Notes under the pieces: generated by a model
Told to the model about the DNA's origin: nothing
The model's database searches: none
Seen by the model: the letters and a program-made list of their open reading frames with translations, nothing else
In this document: positions 18,148 to 54,213 of the stretch, piece by piece
Numbering within the stretch: position 1 is the stretch's first letter
How the letters are laid out: every line of letters begins with the position of its first letter
Made by a program: the position numbers and the translations under genes
NCBI RefSeq assembly: GCF_000797445.1
Contig: NZ_JSWF01000035.1
Location: 124,001 to 188,000 of the forward strand
DNA from: Lacinutrix jangbogonensis
GTDB lineage: Bacteria; Bacteroidota; Bacteroidia; Flavobacteriales; Flavobacteriaceae
Direction of reading: 5' to 3'
Length of the DNA stretch: 64,000 bases

Positions 18148-21100
18148 ATGAAAACAAAGTTTAGTGGAATTCTAACGCTATTACTAGCGTTTGTTGTGCA
18201 ACTCACGTTCGCACAGGGAAAAACAATTTCAGGTACCATCTCCGATGGAGACAATTTACCGTTACCTGGAGTTAATGTTCTTGTTAAAGGTACAAGTAAT
18301 GGTACTACAACAGATTTTGACGGTAATTATTCAATCTCAGCAAAAACAGGAGATATCCTTGTATACTCTTATGTTGGTAACACAGTTGAAGAAACAGTAG
18401 GTGCTGAAAACAACATAAATTTTGTTATGAGTGAAAACACTCTTGACGAAGTTGTAATTACAGCACTTGGTATTAAAAGAAAAAAGGATGAAGTTACAAC
18501 AGTTTACCAAGAGGTAAAAACTGAAGAACTTACTAAAGCTAACAACCCTAGTGTTGTAAATAGTTTATCTGGTAAAGTTTCTGGTTTAACAATTACGCAA
18601 AACTCTAATGGTGTTTCTGGTGGTACAAGAATTGTATTACGTGGTAACCGTTCTATTTCTGGTAACAACCAGGCGTTAATAGTTATTGATGGAGCAATTT
18701 CAACAACAGGTATCTTAAATGCTTTAGATCCGAATCAAATTGATTCAGTAAACGTTATTAAAGGTGCTGCTGGTTCTGCATTATACGGTTCTCAAGGATC
18801 AAATGGTGTAATTGTTGTTTCAACAAAAACAACAACCAAAGGAGAAAAGATGACTGTTCAAGTTAACTCTTCTATAGACTTTGAGTCTGTCGCTTATGTT
18901 CCAGAAAAACAGACTAGATATGGTCAAGGTTGGGATTTAGGTAATGGTTTTGAAAACGTTATTTATGAAAACGGTGGTTGGGGACCAGAATTTGACGGAC
19001 AAGTTGTTCCTGTTGGATTACCTCAAGCTGATGGAACTTTTATTACTGCACCTTACGAATCAAGAGGAGCTGATCATATTAAAGAATTCTTTCAAACAGG
19101 TTTAACAAGACAAAATTCTATTTCTGTTTCTTCAGGTGGTGCTGATGGTTTCATCACATTAGGTGCAAGAAATGTTAACACTGAATTTGTTGTACAAAAC
19201 GATAAAAGAAAAAGAAACACTTTAACATTAAGAGCTGGTAAAACTGCAGGAAACTGGAGTGCTGGTGGTAATGTAGTATATACAAACTCTACTGTAGAGC
19301 GTCATAACGGCGATTTGTATACACAGTTATTACAATCTGCAACAAACATTCCTATCCAAAGTTTTGAGAATTCTGGAAATGAAGGTCACTGGAATGCATA
19401 TTTCACAAACCCTTATTGGAATTTACAAAACCAAAGAACTCAAGGTGAGAACAACAACATCAGTTTACAAGGTGATTTAGGATATAGAGTTAACGATAAT
19501 ATTTCTTTTAAATTATTAAGTAATGCTCGTATTTTTGAAGGTAATAGTTTATCATATCAAAATGGTTATACTGAACCTCAAGAAATTCGTGACAATACTG
19601 GTGCTGACAGATCTTTACTATCTAGTTTTAGTTTCCAGAACTTTAGACAAAGTACTTACTATACCGATTTCTTTGTAAACTTAGATTACGATTTAACCGA
19701 AGATGTTTCTTTTGGAGCTAATATTGGTGTAAACAACCAATACTTCAAAAACAGTTCTACTACAGTTGGTGGTGAAGGTTTAACAATACCTGGTATTTAC
19801 ACTGCAGCAAATTTAAACAATGGAGTAGATGATGCACGTAGTGGAGACACTAGAGCAAGTTCTGCTACCATTTCAACTTTCGCAAATTTAGATTTCGGAT
19901 ATAAAGATTTCTTATTCGTAACTCTAACTGGTAGAAATGACTGGTCTTCTAGATTAGCAAAATCTAAGCAATCTTTCTTTTATCCAGCAGTGAGTATGTC
20001 TTTCTTACCAACAAAAGCATTTGATGGTATGAAGAGTGATGTATTAAACTACATGAAGATAACTGCAGCTTATGTAAAAGTAGGTAACGCCGGTGGTGTT
20101 GGAACTTATGCAATTCAACAATTTGTAAATACTGCAGGTGGTTTTCCATTCGGTGGTCAAAACTCATTTGTTGTTGATAGAACAATAACAGATCCTTTAA
20201 TTAATCCTGAATTTTTAACAACTTTTGAAGTTGGTGCAAATGTTGGAATGTTTAAAGATAGATTAACTATCGATGCTAGTTACTCTTCATTTACTGGTAC
20301 AGATCAAATTACTAGTGTTGCCGCTTCTGCTGCTTCTGGAATTTCTAGAGCTACAGTAAACGTTGCAGAAACTGAGGGTACAGCTTTTGAAGTTGATTTA
20401 GGTGTTAAGGTTATTAAAACTGATGATATCAACTGGAACGTAAATATTGGTTATTCTACAACAAATAACGAAGTAACTAAAGTAACAGATCAAGCTGATC
20501 AAGTATCGCTAGGTGGTTTTGCAGGATTTGCTGAAGTATTTGCTATTAAAGGAGAAGCTTTCCCAGTTATTCAAACTAACTATTACGAAAGAGATCCTCA
20601 AGGTCGTGTTTTAATCGATCCTACAAGTGGTAACCCAATTGAAGCTTCTGGTTTAAAAATTGCAGGTAGAACTACACCTAAGCATACTGTAAACTTAAAT
20701 ACAGCTTTTAACTATAAAAACTGGTCATTACAAGCGACTATGGATTATAGAACTGGACATGTATTTTACTCAGATACTAAATCAAACTTAACTTGGTCAG
20801 GTCACGCTGTTGAAACAGCTCAAGGTGGTCGTGGTTCATTTATATTCCCTAACTCTGCAATAGAGACATCTCCAGGTGTATATGTAGCAAACACAAGTGT
20901 GCCTTCTGCTGGACCTAATGCAGGTGCTTACATTAACTTCTTCGGATTATATAGAGGAGTTGGTGAAAACCACGTATTAGATGCAACTGCATTTAAAGTT
21001 AGAGAATTGTCTTTAAGTTACGACTTAAACAAAGAGTATTTAGAGAACACATTTATTTCAGGTTTAAGAATTAGTGCTACAGCTAGAAATCCTTTTGTAG

Positions 21101-21237
21101 TTTTACCTTCTGAAAACAGAGGATATAACGATCCGGAATCTGGTTTTTCTACTGGTAACGCTCAAGGTATTACTACGCAAGCTGGTAACTATCCTCCAAC
21201 AAGAACATTTGGTTTAGGATTAAACTTAACTTTTTAA
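18148..21237 (+). CDS. SusC/RagA-type TonB-dependent outer-membrane receptor
   Basis: This is the outer-membrane transporter of a SusCD pair, which takes up large nutrients with energy from TonB. The 1029-residue product has a signal peptide (residues 1-23, ending TFAQ) and a carboxypeptidase-regulatory-like domain (about 25-105; LPLPGVNVLVKGT, TTTDFDGNYSI). The short EVVITALGIKRK linker and a TonB plug (about 115-230; GGTRIVLRGNRSISGNN, GSALYGSQGSNGVIVV) come next. A long beta-barrel ends GLGLNLTF. SusD follows nine bases downstream. No carbohydrate-degrading enzyme lies in the operon, so the substrate is open. The N-terminal module is closely matched inside the alpha-2-macroglobulin at 47635. 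Confidence 0.95.
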   Translation: MKTKFSGILTLLLAFVVQLTFAQGKTISGTISDGDNLPLPGVNVLVKGTSNGTTTDFDGNYSISAKTGDILVYSYVGNTVEETVGAENNINFVMSENTLDEVVITALGIKRKKDEVTTVYQEVKTEELTKANNPSVVNSLSGKVSGLTITQNSNGVSGGTRIVLRGNRSISGNNQALIVIDGAISTTGILNALDPNQIDSVNVIKGAAGSALYGSQGSNGVIVVSTKTTTKGEKMTVQVNSSIDFESVAYVPEKQTRYGQGWDLGNGFENVIYENGGWGPEFDGQVVPVGLPQADGTFITAPYESRGADHIKEFFQTGLTRQNSISVSSGGADGFITLGARNVNTEFVVQNDKRKRNTLTLRAGKTAGNWSAGGNVVYTNSTVERHNGDLYTQLLQSATNIPIQSFENSGNEGHWNAYFTNPYWNLQNQRTQGENNNISLQGDLGYRVNDNISFKLLSNARIFEGNSLSYQNGYTEPQEIRDNTGADRSLLSSFSFQNFRQSTYYTDFFVNLDYDLTEDVSFGANIGVNNQYFKNSSTTVGGEGLTIPGIYTAANLNNGVDDARSGDTRASSATISTFANLDFGYKDFLFVTLTGRNDWSSRLAKSKQSFFYPAVSMSFLPTKAFDGMKSDVLNYMKITAAYVKVGNAGGVGTYAIQQFVNTAGGFPFGGQNSFVVDRTITDPLINPEFLTTFEVGANVGMFKDRLTIDASYSSFTGTDQITSVAASAASGISRATVNVAETEGTAFEVDLGVKVIKTDDINWNVNIGYSTTNNEVTKVTDQADQVSLGGFAGFAEVFAIKGEAFPVIQTNYYERDPQGRVLIDPTSGNPIEASGLKIAGRTTPKHTVNLNTAFNYKNWSLQATMDYRTGHVFYSDTKSNLTWSGHAVETAQGGRGSFIFPNSAIETSPGVYVANTSVPSAGPNAGAYINFFGLYRGVGENHVLDATAFKVRELSLSYDLNKEYLENTFISGLRISATARNPFVVLPSENRGYNDPESGFSTGNAQGITTQAGNYPPTRTFGLGLNLTF

Positions 21238-47634: not shown

Positions 47635-50600
47635 ATGAACAAATTACTTAGCTTATTAATGATTATACTTTTTGCCAATACTTCCCTTTCTCAAAACAAT
47701 AACTATTCCAAGTTATGGAGTGACGTTGAAAATTTTGAAATTGAAGGTTTGCCTAAATCTGCTCTAGAAGCATTAGAAAAAATTGAAGTTAAGGCAAAAG
47801 CAGAAAACAACTCGCCACAACTTATAAAAATAATGTTGTTTAAAAGCAAGTTTATGCTCACGCTTGAAGACCACGCGCAACTTAATATTATTGATGCTTT
47901 TAAAGCTGAAATAAAAATAAGTAAAGCACCAACTAAAAACGTATTAGAGAATGTTTTGGCTACTTTATACTGGCAATATTTCCAGCAAAACAGATGGAAA
48001 TTTTATAATCGTTCAAAAACAAACGATAAAGTAAATACTGAAGATTTTAGAACTTGGGATTTGGAGACGCTCTTTGAAGAAGTTCACTTACACTATAAAA
48101 ACTCGCTTGACAATGGTTTGCTACTTCAGCAAACAAAATTAGTAGATTTTGATGTCCTTTTAACATTACAGAATGAATCTAAAAGATACAGACCAACACT
48201 GTTCGATTTTCTTGCTCACAATGCGCTTATTTTTCACAACCATAAGGAAAGCAGAATTACAAAACCAGCTTATAAATTTATAATCGATGATGCCAATTAT
48301 CTAGCAGCTTCTAATAAATTTTCTAATTTAATAATTGTATCTAAAGACACGTCTTCATTAGAGTTAAACGCTTTAAAACTATACAAAGAACTTATAAAAT
48401 TTCATTTAAAAGACCAAGAACCTTATGCTTTAGCTACAGTAAATATAGAACGTTTACTTAATGTAAAACAGTTAGCTACTTTTAATAATAAAGAAACTAT
48501 TTTTATTGAAGCGCTTAAGTCTGAAATGGAAAAACACAAGGCACACGAAGTCTCAGCTTTATACCGTTTTCAATTGGCATCTGTTTATAATAGACAAGGC
48601 ACAGCCTATAACGCTGAAACCAATACAGATGCACGATGGAAAATTAAAGACGCTATTGCCATTTGTGATTTGGCTATTTCTCAATTCCCAAAAAGCAAAG
48701 GTGCAGAACAATGTCGTGTCTTGAAACAGCACATGGAGAATGCTAGTTTGCAAATTATAACAGAAACTACGCTTCCTATTCAAACGGAAGCTCGACTTTT
48801 AGTCACTTTTAAAGAGCTCGATGCCATTAATCTTACCGCTTATAAACTAACAGAAAATCAGTATAAAAAATTTATAAAAATATACAGACGTCACGCGAAA
48901 GATGCATTTATTTCTAAACTAGATCCTTTTAAAAATTGGGACGCTTCACTTAAAAACGAAAAAGATTTTCAGACTCATACTTCTGAAATCTTGATGCCTA
49001 AATTTGATAATGGCCGTTATATAATCACAGCTAACACTTCAGCATTAAAAGAAAACTTTAAGGCGCACACGCTAGTACAGATTACTAATATTGCGCTATT
49101 GGAATATGACGATTCAGCAAAAAAATACTTGCAATTTATAGATAGAAATAATGGCGAACCTATTGCAAATGCAAAAGTCGAATTAGAATACACTTATGGA
49201 AATGAAAAAGTTGAAACAGCATACACTACATCGGACTCTAATGGTAAATTAACTATTAATAAATCGCGTAAAAGACGTAACAATGCAAATGTAAAAATTT
49301 CGACTTCTAGCGATATTGCCTATTACCCAAAACTATATATAAATAGTTATTACAGAGACCGTAATAAAAATGACGACAAACCGCAATACACTATGTTTGT
49401 TTTTACAGACAGAAGTATTTACAGACCTGGACAAGTTGTTTATTTTAAGGGTATTTCTATGAAAACGGAAGATAATAAATCTGAAGTTTTACCAGACCAA
49501 AAAATAAAAGCCATATTAGTTAATGTTAATGGTGAAACGGTAAAAGAACTCGAATTAAAAACAAACGACTATGGTTCTGTAGCAGGAGAATTTATTTTAC
49601 CAGATGGAGGATTGACTGGTAGGTTTACCGTTCGCTTACGAGGCAAACATTCTCATAATGGTAATGCAACTATTTCTGTTGAAGAATATAAACGACCTAA
49701 GTTCGAAACCAATTTCAAACCCATTACCGAAACCATAAAAATTAACGACAGCGTAAAAGTTACAGGTGAAGCTTTAGCTTTTGCAGGGTCAACCATTAGC
49801 GATGCTAAAGTGGTTTACAGAGTAAAACGAAATGTACAATATCCACGTTGGTATTATTGGAGACGTCCTGCAACGCAAGATCAAGGTCAAGAAATTATGC
49901 ACGGTGAAACCACTACAGATGCCTCTGGAAATTACGATATTACCTTTAAAGCTATTCCAGACGAAAGTGTAGACAAAAAAAGTTTACCCATTTTTAAATA
50001 TGAAATTACAGCAGATGTTACAGATATTAATGGCGAAACACGAAGTGCAACAACCATTGTAAACGTTGGTTACCATGCTTTAACTGCAACTATTGGTATG
50101 GAGAACAGTTTGGATAAAACAAATAAAGACCACCAAATAACAATAGATACAAAAAACTTAAATGGTGAGTTTGTTCCTGCAAAAGGCACACTTAAAATCT
50201 ACAAATTAAAAGCGCCAAATAATGTATTACGACCTAGAACTTGGCGAGCACCAGATTACCATAATTTTACAAAAACAGAATTTAAACACCGTTTCCCACA
50301 CGAAGCTTTTACAAACGAACACAAACCAGAAAACTGGAAAAAAGGCGAACTGGTTTTCGATAAAACATTTGATACCGAAAAGTCTAAAACTTTAGATCTC
50401 GGTACTATTAAAAGGTGGCAATCTGGCGAATATATTGTAATGCTTGAAACCAAAGATAAATTTGGTCAAGATGTAAAAGATGAAGCTAAAACCAGATTGT
50501 TTAGTGATAAAGATGAGTATTTAGCAGACAACCAGTTATTCCGTATTACAACAGATAAAGAACAATACACAACTAACGACACCGTAGAATTAACGTTAGC

Positions 50601-53600
50601 AACTGCTGCAGAAAATATTTGGGTAACTGTAGCTATTGAAAAAGAACACAAAATCATTAATACGTACATTATTAAACTAAATCGTAATAATAAAACCATA
50701 CGTATTCCTTTAAGCCCAAAAGACCTTGGTGGTTTTGTTGTGCATTATAGCTTTGCAGCTTTTAATAGCTTTCATACCAATACGGTTAAAATAAATGTGC
50801 CTTATCCTAAAACGGACTTAGAAATTGAAACACTAACTTTTAGAGATAAATTGCAACCAGGAACAGACGAAACTTGGACATTTAAAATAAAAGGTCCAAA
50901 AGGTGATAAAGTTGCTGCCGAATTGTTAGCTAGCATGTACGATGCGTCTCTAGATGAATTTAAACCACATAATTGGACTTTTAAACCTATTAATCGCGCG
51001 ATGTATTATTCTAGTCTTAGACGTAATGCACATAAAAGTTTTGGGAATACTAGTTTTAATGTGAATAGAAATACGTCTTTTAAAAGCTATGCACCAAAGC
51101 AACAATACGACCAATTAAATTGGTTTGGTTTTGATTTGAATAACCACTGGGTTTACCAACAGTATATAAGAAAGCTTAAACAAAAAAGAGCTATCTCTAT
51201 CTATGATAAAGACTTAAAAGCAGGCACTGTTACAGGAATCGTTTACGACAAAGATAACTTACCTCTTCCTGGAGTTAATATTATTATTGAAGGCACAACT
51301 ATAGGTACCACAACAGATTTTGATGGTGCATTTACTATTAAAGTTAAAAAAGGAGATAAATTAGTATTAACCTATGTAGGTAATAAGAAAGTTATTACGA
51401 TAGGAAAAGAGAATACTTTTAAAATTTACATGGAAGAAAACACTTCAGATGAAGTCGTTATAACAGCTTTAGGAATTAAGAGGAAATCTAACAAAAAAAC
51501 GACAGTTTATCAAGAAGTAAGAACTGAAGAATTAATGATGGCTGACAATCCAAGTGTTGTAAATGGTCTATCTGGAAAAGTCTCTGGACTAAATATTAAT
51601 GAACCTGAAGGAGGAACAAGAATTGTACTTAGAGGTAATCGTTCAATATCAGGAAATAATGAGTCTTTAATTGTTATTGATGGTAAAGTTTCAACAACTG
51701 GGATTCTTAACTCAATAAATCCAAATGATATTATTTCAGTTAACGTTCTAAAAGGAGCTGAAGGTTCAGCATTATATGGATCAAAAGGTGCAAATGGTGT
51801 AATCGTTGTTACAACAAATGGAGTAAATATTCCAGATGCTTTAGAAGATTACTCAAAAGTTAAAATTCGTAAAAACCTTCAAGAAACTGCTTTTTTCTTT
51901 CCACAATTACAAACAAATGAGAAACGTGAAGTTAGTTTCAGTTTTACAACTCCAGAAGCATTAACCAAATGGAAATTGCAATTATTAGCACATACTAAAA
52001 CATTAGAAAATGCAACCACATCTTTAACGACAGTAACCCAAAAAGAATTGATGGTGTTACCAAACGTACCACGTTTTTTACGTCAAGGTGATACTATTAA
52101 AATATCAACTAAAATTTCTAATCTTACAGACAAAGAATTAAAAGGTGTTGCAGTGCTCCAGTTGTTTGATGCTTTGACTGGAGAATCTATTGACGGCAAA
52201 CTATCGAATGCTTATAACGATTTAGGATTTACAGTCGATGCAAAAGGCAATACAAGTGTCACTTGGAATCTAAATGTAACAGATGATGTACAAGCGATTC
52301 AGTATAAAATAATAGCGAAATCTGGGAACTATAGCGACGGTGAACAAAACGTATTACCTGTGTTAACCAACAGAATGTTGGTGACAGAAAGTTTACCACT
52401 ATGGATTAGAAGCAATCAAACAAAAACATTCACTTTAGATAAGTTGAAGACAAATACATCAACCACGCTTAAAAACCATAAGCTTACCTTAGAAATGACG
52501 AGTAATCCAGCTTGGTATGCAGTGCAAGCATTACCCTATTTAATGGAGTACCCTTACGAGTGCAACGAGCAAACCTTCTCACGTTTTTATGCCAATGCTT
52601 TAGCTAGCCATATTGCAAACTCAAATCCTAGAATTCAAGACGTTTTTAACCAATGGAAAAACACTGATGCTTTATTAAGCAACTTAGAAAAAAATCAAGA
52701 ATTAAAATCTATTTTAATTCAAGAAACACCTTGGTTACGTGATGCGCAAAGTGAAACCGAACAGAAAAAACGTATTGCTTTGTTATTCGATTTAAATAAA
52801 ATGAATAACGAATTATCGCGTGCGAAAAGAAAACTAAAACAAAACCAAATGTCAAGTGGAGCATGGTCATGGTTTCGAGATTATCGTCCAAACCGTTACA
52901 TCACACAACATATTATTACTGGTTTCGGGCATCTTGATAAATTGAATGTCATTCAGAGCAAAAACGAAGAATCTATGATAAATAAAGCTTTAAGATATCT
53001 TGATGCTGAATTTATAAAAGAATACAAAGACATTAGAAAATACGATAAAGATGCCGACTTAAATAGCGACAGATTAAGTTACACGCAATTACACTATTTG
53101 TATATGAGAAGTTTCTTCCCAGAAAATAAGCCGAGTAAAGAGGTTAGCGAGATTATGGACTATTACCATTCTCAAATTAAAACCTATTGGTTAAAAAGGC
53201 CATTATATGCAAAAGGCATGATGGCTTTGGTTGCTCATAGAAATAAAGATGGAGTGACATCGGCTAAAATTTTAAATTCATTAAAAGAAACAAGTATTAC
53301 AAGCGAAGAATTAGGGATGTATTGGAAAGAAAATACAAATTCTTGGTATTGGTATCAAGCACCAATAGAAACACAAGCGTTAATGATTGAAGCGTTTTCT
53401 GAAGCTGGAACTACTATACAAAGCGAAGCTGAAAACAAAAGTACAATAGACGAACTTAAAATTTGGTTGCTTAAAAACAAGCAAACCAACCGTTGGAAAA
53501 CGACTAAAGCAACTACCGAAGCTGTTTATGCTTTATTGCTTCAAGGGAGCGATTGGTTGAGTGTTACAGATATGGTAGAAGTAATAGTTGGAGACCAACC

Positions 53601-54213
53601 TATTTCACCTTCAACATTGGAAGCTGTAAAAGTAGAGGCAGGAACAGGCTATTATAAAACCAGTTGGCCTGGTACTGAAATCACTCCTAAAATGGCGGAT
53701 GTAAAAATCACCAAAAAAGGAAATGGTATTGCTTGGGGAAATTTATACTGGCAATATTTCGAGGATTTAGATAAAATTACTTCTGCTGAAACACCTTTAA
53801 AGTTGAAGAAAAAACTCTTCAAAAAAACAAACACAGATAAAGGTGAAGTGATTACAGATATTACCAAAGACACGAAGCTTGAAGTTGGAGATTTAGTTCG
53901 TGTTCGCATAGAGTTACGAAGTGATCGTGCCATGGAATTTGTGCACATGAAAGATATGCGAGCAGCCGGCTTAGAACCCGTAAATGTTTTATCTAGTTAT
54001 AAATACCAGGATGGTTTAGGATATTATGAAGCCACAAAAGATGCCTCTACTAACTTCTTCTTCGATTATTTACCAAAAGGTATTTATGTTTTTGAATATG
54101 ATTTACGCGTGAGCAATGCTGGAAACATGAGTAATGGTATTACTACTATACAAAGTATGTATGCACCAGAGTTTAGTAGCCATAGTGAAGGTATTAGGAT
54201 TACAGTAGAATAA
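47635..54213 (+). CDS. Alpha-2-macroglobulin with embedded SusC-type regulatory and TonB-plug module
   Basis: This 2192-residue secreted protein (signal peptide ending SLSQ, no lipobox) belongs to the alpha-2-macroglobulin family of protease traps. A helical N-terminal part precedes MG2 (about 585-690; FTDRSIYRPGQVVYFKG). The bait-region domain follows (about 960-1110; AAELLASMYDASLDEF), then residues 1197-1395. Those form a carboxypeptidase-regulatory-like domain (LPLPGVNIIIEGT, TTTDFDGAF), the linker EVVITALGIKRK and a TonB plug (GGTRIVLRGNRSISGNN, GSALYGSKGANGVIVV). The A2M domain resumes at 1412 (RKNLQETAFFFPQ), with a complete thioester motif C1643-N-E-Q in YPYECNEQTFSRF and a C-terminal receptor-binding-like domain. 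No beta-barrel is present. The usual partner pbpC is not adjacent. Confidence 0.92.
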   Translation: MNKLLSLLMIILFANTSLSQNNNYSKLWSDVENFEIEGLPKSALEALEKIEVKAKAENNSPQLIKIMLFKSKFMLTLEDHAQLNIIDAFKAEIKISKAPTKNVLENVLATLYWQYFQQNRWKFYNRSKTNDKVNTEDFRTWDLETLFEEVHLHYKNSLDNGLLLQQTKLVDFDVLLTLQNESKRYRPTLFDFLAHNALIFHNHKESRITKPAYKFIIDDANYLAASNKFSNLIIVSKDTSSLELNALKLYKELIKFHLKDQEPYALATVNIERLLNVKQLATFNNKETIFIEALKSEMEKHKAHEVSALYRFQLASVYNRQGTAYNAETNTDARWKIKDAIAICDLAISQFPKSKGAEQCRVLKQHMENASLQIITETTLPIQTEARLLVTFKELDAINLTAYKLTENQYKKFIKIYRRHAKDAFISKLDPFKNWDASLKNEKDFQTHTSEILMPKFDNGRYIITANTSALKENFKAHTLVQITNIALLEYDDSAKKYLQFIDRNNGEPIANAKVELEYTYGNEKVETAYTTSDSNGKLTINKSRKRRNNANVKISTSSDIAYYPKLYINSYYRDRNKNDDKPQYTMFVFTDRSIYRPGQVVYFKGISMKTEDNKSEVLPDQKIKAILVNVNGETVKELELKTNDYGSVAGEFILPDGGLTGRFTVRLRGKHSHNGNATISVEEYKRPKFETNFKPITETIKINDSVKVTGEALAFAGSTISDAKVVYRVKRNVQYPRWYYWRRPATQDQGQEIMHGETTTDASGNYDITFKAIPDESVDKKSLPIFKYEITADVTDINGETRSATTIVNVGYHALTATIGMENSLDKTNKDHQITIDTKNLNGEFVPAKGTLKIYKLKAPNNVLRPRTWRAPDYHNFTKTEFKHRFPHEAFTNEHKPENWKKGELVFDKTFDTEKSKTLDLGTIKRWQSGEYIVMLETKDKFGQDVKDEAKTRLFSDKDEYLADNQLFRITTDKEQYTTNDTVELTLATAAENIWVTVAIEKEHKIINTYIIKLNRNNKTIRIPLSPKDLGGFVVHYSFAAFNSFHTNTVKINVPYPKTDLEIETLTFRDKLQPGTDETWTFKIKGPKGDKVAAELLASMYDASLDEFKPHNWTFKPINRAMYYSSLRRNAHKSFGNTSFNVNRNTSFKSYAPKQQYDQLNWFGFDLNNHWVYQQYIRKLKQKRAISIYDKDLKAGTVTGIVYDKDNLPLPGVNIIIEGTTIGTTTDFDGAFTIKVKKGDKLVLTYVGNKKVITIGKENTFKIYMEENTSDEVVITALGIKRKSNKKTTVYQEVRTEELMMADNPSVVNGLSGKVSGLNINEPEGGTRIVLRGNRSISGNNESLIVIDGKVSTTGILNSINPNDIISVNVLKGAEGSALYGSKGANGVIVVTTNGVNIPDALEDYSKVKIRKNLQETAFFFPQLQTNEKREVSFSFTTPEALTKWKLQLLAHTKTLENATTSLTTVTQKELMVLPNVPRFLRQGDTIKISTKISNLTDKELKGVAVLQLFDALTGESIDGKLSNAYNDLGFTVDAKGNTSVTWNLNVTDDVQAIQYKIIAKSGNYSDGEQNVLPVLTNRMLVTESLPLWIRSNQTKTFTLDKLKTNTSTTLKNHKLTLEMTSNPAWYAVQALPYLMEYPYECNEQTFSRFYANALASHIANSNPRIQDVFNQWKNTDALLSNLEKNQELKSILIQETPWLRDAQSETEQKKRIALLFDLNKMNNELSRAKRKLKQNQMSSGAWSWFRDYRPNRYITQHIITGFGHLDKLNVIQSKNEESMINKALRYLDAEFIKEYKDIRKYDKDADLNSDRLSYTQLHYLYMRSFFPENKPSKEVSEIMDYYHSQIKTYWLKRPLYAKGMMALVAHRNKDGVTSAKILNSLKETSITSEELGMYWKENTNSWYWYQAPIETQALMIEAFSEAGTTIQSEAENKSTIDELKIWLLKNKQTNRWKTTKATTEAVYALLLQGSDWLSVTDMVEVIVGDQPISPSTLEAVKVEAGTGYYKTSWPGTEITPKMADVKITKKGNGIAWGNLYWQYFEDLDKITSAETPLKLKKKLFKKTNTDKGEVITDITKDTKLEVGDLVRVRIELRSDRAMEFVHMKDMRAAGLEPVNVLSSYKYQDGLGYYEATKDASTNFFFDYLPKGIYVFEYDLRVSNAGNMSNGITTIQSMYAPEFSSHSEGIRITVE
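51223..51820 (+). other. SusC-type N-terminal module inside the alpha-2-macroglobulin
   Basis: This in-frame segment (residues about 1197-1395) aligns along its whole length with residues about 27-230 of the SusC at 18148. Shared runs include LPLPGVN, TTTDFDG, EVVITALGIKRK, GGTRIVLRGNRSISGNN, IVIDG and GSALYGS. It lies between the bait-region domain and the A2M domain, at the position of the protease-cleaved bait. Confidence 0.88.

Follow-up and report, generated by a model that had tools for sequence, protein, structure and literature searches.

A SusC-type NTE–Ton box–plug module in the putative bait segment of a Bacteroidota alpha-2-macroglobulin

The alpha-2-macroglobulin gene and its embedded module

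The window, by which we mean the whole 64,000-nucleotide stretch of Lacinutrix jangbogonensis DNA analysed here, carries a gene for an alpha-2-macroglobulin (A2M) with a SusC-type segment between its A2M domains (Table 1). The MG2, A2M_BRD, A2M and MG10 domains were present in A2M order, each above its Pfam cut-off, and the protein is probably an exported, periplasmic A2M. An earlier note on this DNA had described a complete SusC-type module at 51223–51820, corresponding to residues 1197–1395, between the bait-region domain and the resumed A2M domain. Pfam and NCBIfam TIGR04056 (SusC/RagA) agreed on this layout, and the Pfam scan proposed in the note recovered both the A2M domains and CarbopepD_reg_2 plus Plug. 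TIGR04056 spanned residues 1198–1395 with an E-value of 9.8e-58; this match covered profile positions 2–204 of 981, and its 196 bits lay below the whole-protein cut-off of 368. The PDB structure closest to the segment was the SusC homolog 5t3r_D (E 3.5e-26). Compared with the SusC/RagA family, the window A2M has the NTE, Ton box and plug and lacks the outer-membrane beta-barrel: no barrel family was matched after the plug by Pfam up to an E-value of 1 or by NCBIfam, and A2M domains follow instead. The absence of a barrel and the intact thioester motif (CNEQ), both asserted previously, were confirmed. Without a barrel, TonB-dependent import by this protein would not be expected.

Table 1. Features of the window that bear on the A2M and its SusC-type module
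Feature	Position	Strand	Basis or remark
N-terminal module of SusC-like gene 18148-21237	18223..18825	+	69% aa identity to bait module
A2M gene	47635..54213	+	uninterrupted frame, 2192 aa
Signal peptide, type I	47635..47694	+	by eye; lipobox not found
MG2 domain, residues 587-679	49393..49671	+	Pfam, E 2.2e-17
A2M_BRD bait-region domain, residues 970-1087	50542..50895	+	Pfam, E 3.4e-6
Variable bait segment, WFGF (1163) to KIRKNL (1410), both conserved	51121..51861	+	family comparison; aligned to the bait position of the ECAM-type paralog
NTE / CarbopepD_reg_2 of SusC type, residues 1199-1276	51229..51462	+	Pfam, E 4.7e-14
Ton-box-like motif SDEVVITALG, residues 1271-1280	51445..51474	+	sequence
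TonB Plug without barrel, residues 1293-1389	51511..51801	+	Pfam, E 2.5e-9
SusC/RagA signature segment, residues 1365-1394	51727..51816	+	NCBIfam TIGR04057, 44.5 bits (cut-off 46.2)
A2M domain, residues 1418-1504	51886..52146	+	Pfam, E 6.8e-17
CNEQ thioester motif, residues 1643-1646	52561..52572	+	sequence
bMG10 domain, residues 2055-2179	53797..54171	+	Pfam, E 1.8e-32

The same genome encodes an ECAM-type A2M (L273:2321–7906) with a lipobox-like start, as judged by eye, and a CVEQ motif. A 782-aa ORF that we labelled PBP1C-like by eye (L273:9321–11669) lies downstream of it. The window protein is a second A2M type, distinct from this lipoprotein-like one. Barrel-less NTE–Ton box–plug modules were also found on the minus strand of L255, in a 956-aa VIT/VWA protein (L255:5756–8626) and a 547-aa TPR protein (L255:9687–11330). 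A further barrel-less module ORF (L255:4043–5128, minus strand) leads into a YfbK-like VWA protein, whose gene seems to be split over two frames; the Plug of this ORF scored 48 bits in one scan and gave no match at E ≤0.01 in another.

Searches of the PDB with profiles A3 and A1 yielded zero matches, and the bait was therefore mapped through the ECAM-type paralog, which aligns with E. coli YfhM (ECAM) at an E-value of about 1e-74. In the hhalign profile alignment of family against paralog, into which the paralog entered as a single sequence and the window family as a profile, residues 1198–1395 fell over the paralog's bait, mostly as a gap. In ECAM, according to an excerpt of PMC4498604, the residues without density, Arg923–Leu942, sit within the bait; by our own identification, from matching length and ends, RYGADIYDIYGQVIEGQGRL in the ECAM alignment is a candidate for these residues. 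The earlier placement of the module at the bait position was borne out at the level of homology, by way of the paralog, and on this basis the module appears to occupy that position. Hypervariability among close relatives, taken as a criterion for a bait, was observed: in eight within-genus pairs the bait was 50–83% identical, versus 88–99% for the next 300 residues. Of 60 module matches (E ≤1e-3) among the A2Ms of our set, 59 fell within the bait; the remaining one was in L118, a distant A2M without a delimited bait, where by eye the module occupies the corresponding place.

The earlier note had named an assembly join of two genes as a finding that would overturn its reading. This proved not to be so, because genome G311 encodes an A2M whose in-frame bait is 79% identical to that of the window (on a contig of only 3,683 bases), and because A2Ms of other genera also carry in-frame SusC modules. 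Together with the uninterrupted frame, these findings rule out two genes joined by assembly or annotation, and we consider such an artefact practically out of the question.

Bait states and SusC remnants among related A2Ms

With the C-terminal part of the A2M as query, matches were obtained in 38 of the 60 family genomes and 85 of the 247 phylum genomes searched, counts that take in weak ECAM-type matches. Within the genus, all 13 genomes, counting that of the window, gave a match, which was weak in one of them, and the query part was 85–94% identical in 10 of the 12 others. After removal of 10 duplicates, the 173 A2Ms collected gave 163 distinct proteins, from which 162 baits were extracted; the exception was L118, which has no left anchor and yet carries a full module by eye. 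At L215 the bait was read from the longest ORF, which is a second A2M copy, in place of the matched one. One of the 162 was dropped from the A2M-core tree as too short, leaving 161 A2Ms including that of the window. Adjacent A2M copies with differing baits were seen in one genome each at L067/L069/L070, at L256/L266 and at L215, where the bait read is that of the second copy.

The 161 baits comprised 17 with the full module, 26 with the NTE only, 12 with the plug only, 54 with SusC fragments and 52 with no SusC trace; a plug-length match was thus lacking in 132. On the A2M-core tree the five states required 61 changes, whereas shuffled states required 85.9 on average and reached so low a value in 0 of 200 shuffles, and plug presence required 20 changes; all these counts are approximate, being taken from a FastTree tree with long branches. 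Since 61 changes fall well below the shuffled value, much of the bait state seems to be inherited, and overall the states appear partly inherited and partly labile. What had been presented as one odd protein is instead one instance of a feature that recurs in A2Ms of this type.

Pfam was run on 135 baits, the other 27 of the 162 being excluded. CarbopepD_reg_2 was matched in 43, CarboxypepD_reg in 42 and Plug in 27, besides weaker matches to small beta-sandwich families and one to A2M_BRD; no barrel or SusD family was matched in these baits at E ≤0.001. By eye, the baits of L080, L093 and L096 resemble the plug starts of non-SusC classes of TonB-dependent receptors. Of the 163 A2Ms, 147 had a CxEQ motif within their last 900 residues; the 16 without it were L053, L065, L072, L091, L092, L104–L106, L108–L112, L114, L116 and L117. 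By a crude regular expression, 155 of the 163 have a type I signal peptide, two a lipobox-like start and six an unrecognisable start.

Motif matrices built from SusC-type sequences were applied to the 162 baits with 200 shuffles per bait, a threshold of p<0.01 and 1.6 chance hits expected per motif. The Ton box was detected in 78 baits, an ALSGKVAGV-like motif (K) in 51, the NTE core in 42, the signature in 30, IRG in 28 and IDG in 21. In the 110 short baits, defined as those without a module match of at least 60 positions, where about one hit per motif is expected, the Ton-box-like motif was the commonest SusC remnant (42), followed by K (27), IRG (10), the NTE core (3), the signature (2) and IDG (0). 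LxEVV was also among the few majority columns in an alignment of 135 baits. In sister short baits, Ton-motif positions were kept in 35 of 48 instances versus 155 of 384, a comparison to which we give no weight, since the presence of the motif in both sisters was the basis of their selection and introduces a bias. As a control, the ECAM-type baits of the genus gave none of four SusC motifs at p<0.01, the bait of L273 included; this control is small, since it consists of three near-identical baits and four of the seven loci gave no bait match.

Where a short bait contained both motifs, K preceded the Ton box in 17 of 18 cases, the reverse of the order in SusC, and over all 37 baits with both the order changed eight times on the tree. 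The K-before-Ton baits include L045, L051, L052, L056, L100, L115, L193 and L206, and L044 reads K–Ton–K by eye. Permuted remnants also occur outside the A2M family of the window (L100, L107 and L115). Our guess is that the permuted order might have arisen by tandem capture followed by deletion.

The dN/dS ratio of the bait was 0.2–0.55, versus 0.02–0.25 for the flanks (13 of 15 pairs where it was estimable). Between the window and its congener L128 it was 0.14 for the NTE, 0.18 for the Ton box with the linker and 0.27 for the plug. These values suggest that the bait evolves faster than its flanks and yet is no neutral relic, and the window's copy appears to be under purifying selection.

Origin of the captured segments

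The closest in-genome relative of the window module is the SusC-like gene 18148–21237, which lies 33 kb away; the next, at 61% identity, belongs to a VIT/VWA protein and has no barrel. As judged from sequence comparison, this SusC-like gene likely belongs to the donor lineage. The two halves of the module differ in their affinities. The window NTE is 93% and 70% identical to those of the congener baits L128 and L261, and 59% to that of the SusC-like gene; the window plug is 73% identical within the SusC lineage of 18148–21237 and 70% to the nearest bait. In two congeners (L258 and L260) the A2M cores are 89–90% identical to that of the window, and their plugs come from a different SusC lineage (L163/L165), to which they are up to 72% identical.

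Tree tests were consistent with this pattern. Within the genus (eight baits and 25 receptor-like rows), a single clade of bait plugs was rejected (p-AU 8.5e-5), whereas the bait NTEs were compatible with one origin (p-AU 0.388). The window plug and the window SusC plug forked together with a support of 93/96, which is under our starred level, and L258, L260 and L262 forked with L163 and L165 at 98/94. L262 (from G313) is a mosaic, its NTE grouping with the bait clade and its plug with the L163/L165 lineage. In a wider set from further genera (18 baits and 58 receptor-like rows; an alignment of only 102 columns, with the added rows drawn by similarity to one bait), one clade of bait plugs was again rejected (p-AU 3.8e-4), and the value was still 3.8e-4 after removal of L258, L260 and L262. 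The bait/receptor label changed nine times on this wider tree, four of the changes being forced by well-supported branches. It is thus well supported by these trees that bait plugs were captured from more than one SusC lineage.

Two simpler histories were considered. A single ancestral insertion followed by simple decay is rejected for the plug by the p-AU values above, not for the NTE within the genus. A very recent copy of the window SusC gene is unlikely, given a plug dS of about 0.97 and a module held in common with G311.

As to the source genome, the plug of L068 shares 66% identity with a receptor encoded in the L068 genome, against 53% with the next bait; for the 15 plugs with own-genome rows in the set, an own-genome receptor was the best match in four, the window's being a tie. 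A preference for donors from the same genome is suggested, and no more than suggested, by these matches, since a large part of the receptors compared had been selected for their resemblance to L066. Two receptors outside the SusC class and a single A2M bait were kept out of the seeds of the module profile; seeds and receptor-like tree rows alike include barrel-less proteins (L158 is a VIT/VWA protein) and short or cut ORFs, so that a donor other than a functional receptor is conceivable. Barrel-less copies such as L158 share the plug lineage of the window and could themselves have donated its plug.

Possible roles of the captured bait and comparison with known systems

We propose that the bait of the window A2M was built by capturing SusC N-terminal modules and works as a decoy, a reading that we find plausible and hold tentatively. 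The NTE–Ton box–plug module of SusC receptors would have been captured into the bait segment; a periplasmic protease attacking the plug, or the flexible linker at the Ton box, would then also cut the A2M, and the cut bait would trigger it, so that the CNEQ thioester could catch the protease. Copying its own receptors would keep the decoy like what such proteases attack, as an "integrated decoy". Excerpts of the published work bear on this: ECAM is activated by cleavage of its disordered bait (PMC4498604), the Ton box of the SusC protein Bt1763 is flexible in solution, and the plug of the same protein was lost in one crystal preparation through inadvertent proteolysis (PMC7782687). A flexible Ton box and a proteolysis-prone plug would be features wanted in a bait, and a bait made from a cell's own receptors would presumably be cut by any protease that cuts those receptors. 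The idea of the plug as bait, one of several put forward in the earlier note, fits the comparative data, and the captured segment may function as the bait. Several observations weigh against the decoy. A folded plug is an odd bait, the likely flexible part being only the Ton-box linker; VIT/VWA and TPR proteins, which have no bait, carry this module too, which may point to a general use of it; L091 and L092 carry the full module and lack the thioester cysteine; 52 of the 161 A2Ms show no SusC trace; the states are clustered on the tree, with a single NTE origin in the genus not rejected; and own-genome receptors were the best plug match in only four of 15 cases. It seems possible, though doubtful, that Bacteroidota A2Ms in general repeatedly overwrite their bait with the N-termini of their own SusC proteins, giving an integrated decoy that is renewed by recombination and has the Ton box as its smallest lasting element; the trap would then go on presenting the periplasm-facing, protease-prone side of the receptors encountered by attackers.

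The frequent retention of the Ton box is better explained by the main rival of the decoy, in which this motif would bind the C-terminal domain of TonB and tether the A2M to TonB–ExbBD or near the receptors, with plug and NTE as passengers; a protease cutting the bait would free the trap and arm it in one step. Docking is still conceivable because a Ton-box-like motif is what short baits most often retain (42 of 110, versus 2 with the signature; 78 of all 162), and LxEVV is a majority column of the 135-bait alignment. Most of these A2Ms seemingly have type I signal peptides without a lipid anchor, and other exported proteins encoded in this genome carry the module as well. However, 84 of the 162 baits have no Ton-box-like motif at p<0.01, the plug stands alone in 12 A2Ms, and several plugs, by eye, have no canonical Ton box before them. 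A pure docking site would need neither NTE nor plug, let alone plugs of other SusC lineages, and the use of several plug lineages would not be accounted for. The position varies strongly and trades SusC pieces, and in many relatives it is a short linker with no recognisable module, as would suit a bait more readily than a docking domain. We regard docking as rather unlikely.

Equally improbable in our judgement is that the bait tolerates nearly any sequence and that chance recombination inserts SusC pieces which then decay, SusC genes being conserved coding repeats of which these genomes have many (in the eight genomes searched, a single module gave 18 to 60 matches per genome at E ≤0.001). 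The hypervariability, the many state changes and the permuted remnants would be expected from such neutral capture. It would explain the turnover, but neither the bait dN/dS below 1 nor the selectivity: only the N-terminal part of SusC was found in the 135 baits and never the longer barrel, although barrel pieces may be selected against, and the remnants retained are internal motifs (Ton, K) rather than module ends. That the A2M plug inserts into SusC-like barrels, obstructs them or serves to dock the A2M on them is very unlikely, since 132 of 161 A2Ms have no plug-length match, even though the window plug (1293–1389) is nearly complete and constrained.

The A2M and the SusC module are known families, and their combination is evident at once from a Pfam scan. 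We found no paper on an A2M with a SusC plug in the open-licence literature, and repeated uptake of receptor N-termini into an A2M bait is new as far as our literature search shows. If the bait is a copy of receptors that the cell itself makes, its sequence hints at what attackers cut, and the swapped baits among close species offer a ready comparison set. The decoy reading, if true, would provide a bacterial integrated decoy and a receptor plug put to use without its barrel. Docking of such a trap to TonB would be no less new.

The nearest A2M systems are E. coli YfhM (ECAM; PDB 4rtd, 5a42 and 4ziq) and the lipoprotein A2M SaA2M (4u48). Like ECAM, the window A2M has a series of MG domains, a bait before the next MG domain, a CxEQ thioester and a C-terminal MG10-type domain. 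In ECAM, as described in the excerpted text of PMC4498604, the bait is largely disordered and the protein is anchored in the inner membrane with Pbp1C as partner; in the window A2M, the bait contains a SusC module and no lipobox was seen. The PBP1C-like gene (by eye) lies near the other A2M of the genome and not this one. With the SusC/RagA receptors (Bt1763, 5t3r; RagA, 6sli) the window module shares NTE, Ton box, plug and signature in unchanged order; for Bt1763, an excerpt of PMC7782687 gives the order NTE, Ton box, plug, with DEVVVTG as the Ton box. Unlike those receptors, the window module has no beta-barrel and is embedded in an A2M. A folded domain at the position equivalent to the A2M bait, as in the window protein, is also known from complement C3, C4 and C5, where the anaphylatoxin domain has an unrelated fold and is freed as a signal by a dedicated convertase. 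The integrated decoys of plant NLRs, in which the guard carries a copy of the attackers' target, offer an analogy only, as they differ from an A2M bait in the proteins, the compartment and the chemistry involved.
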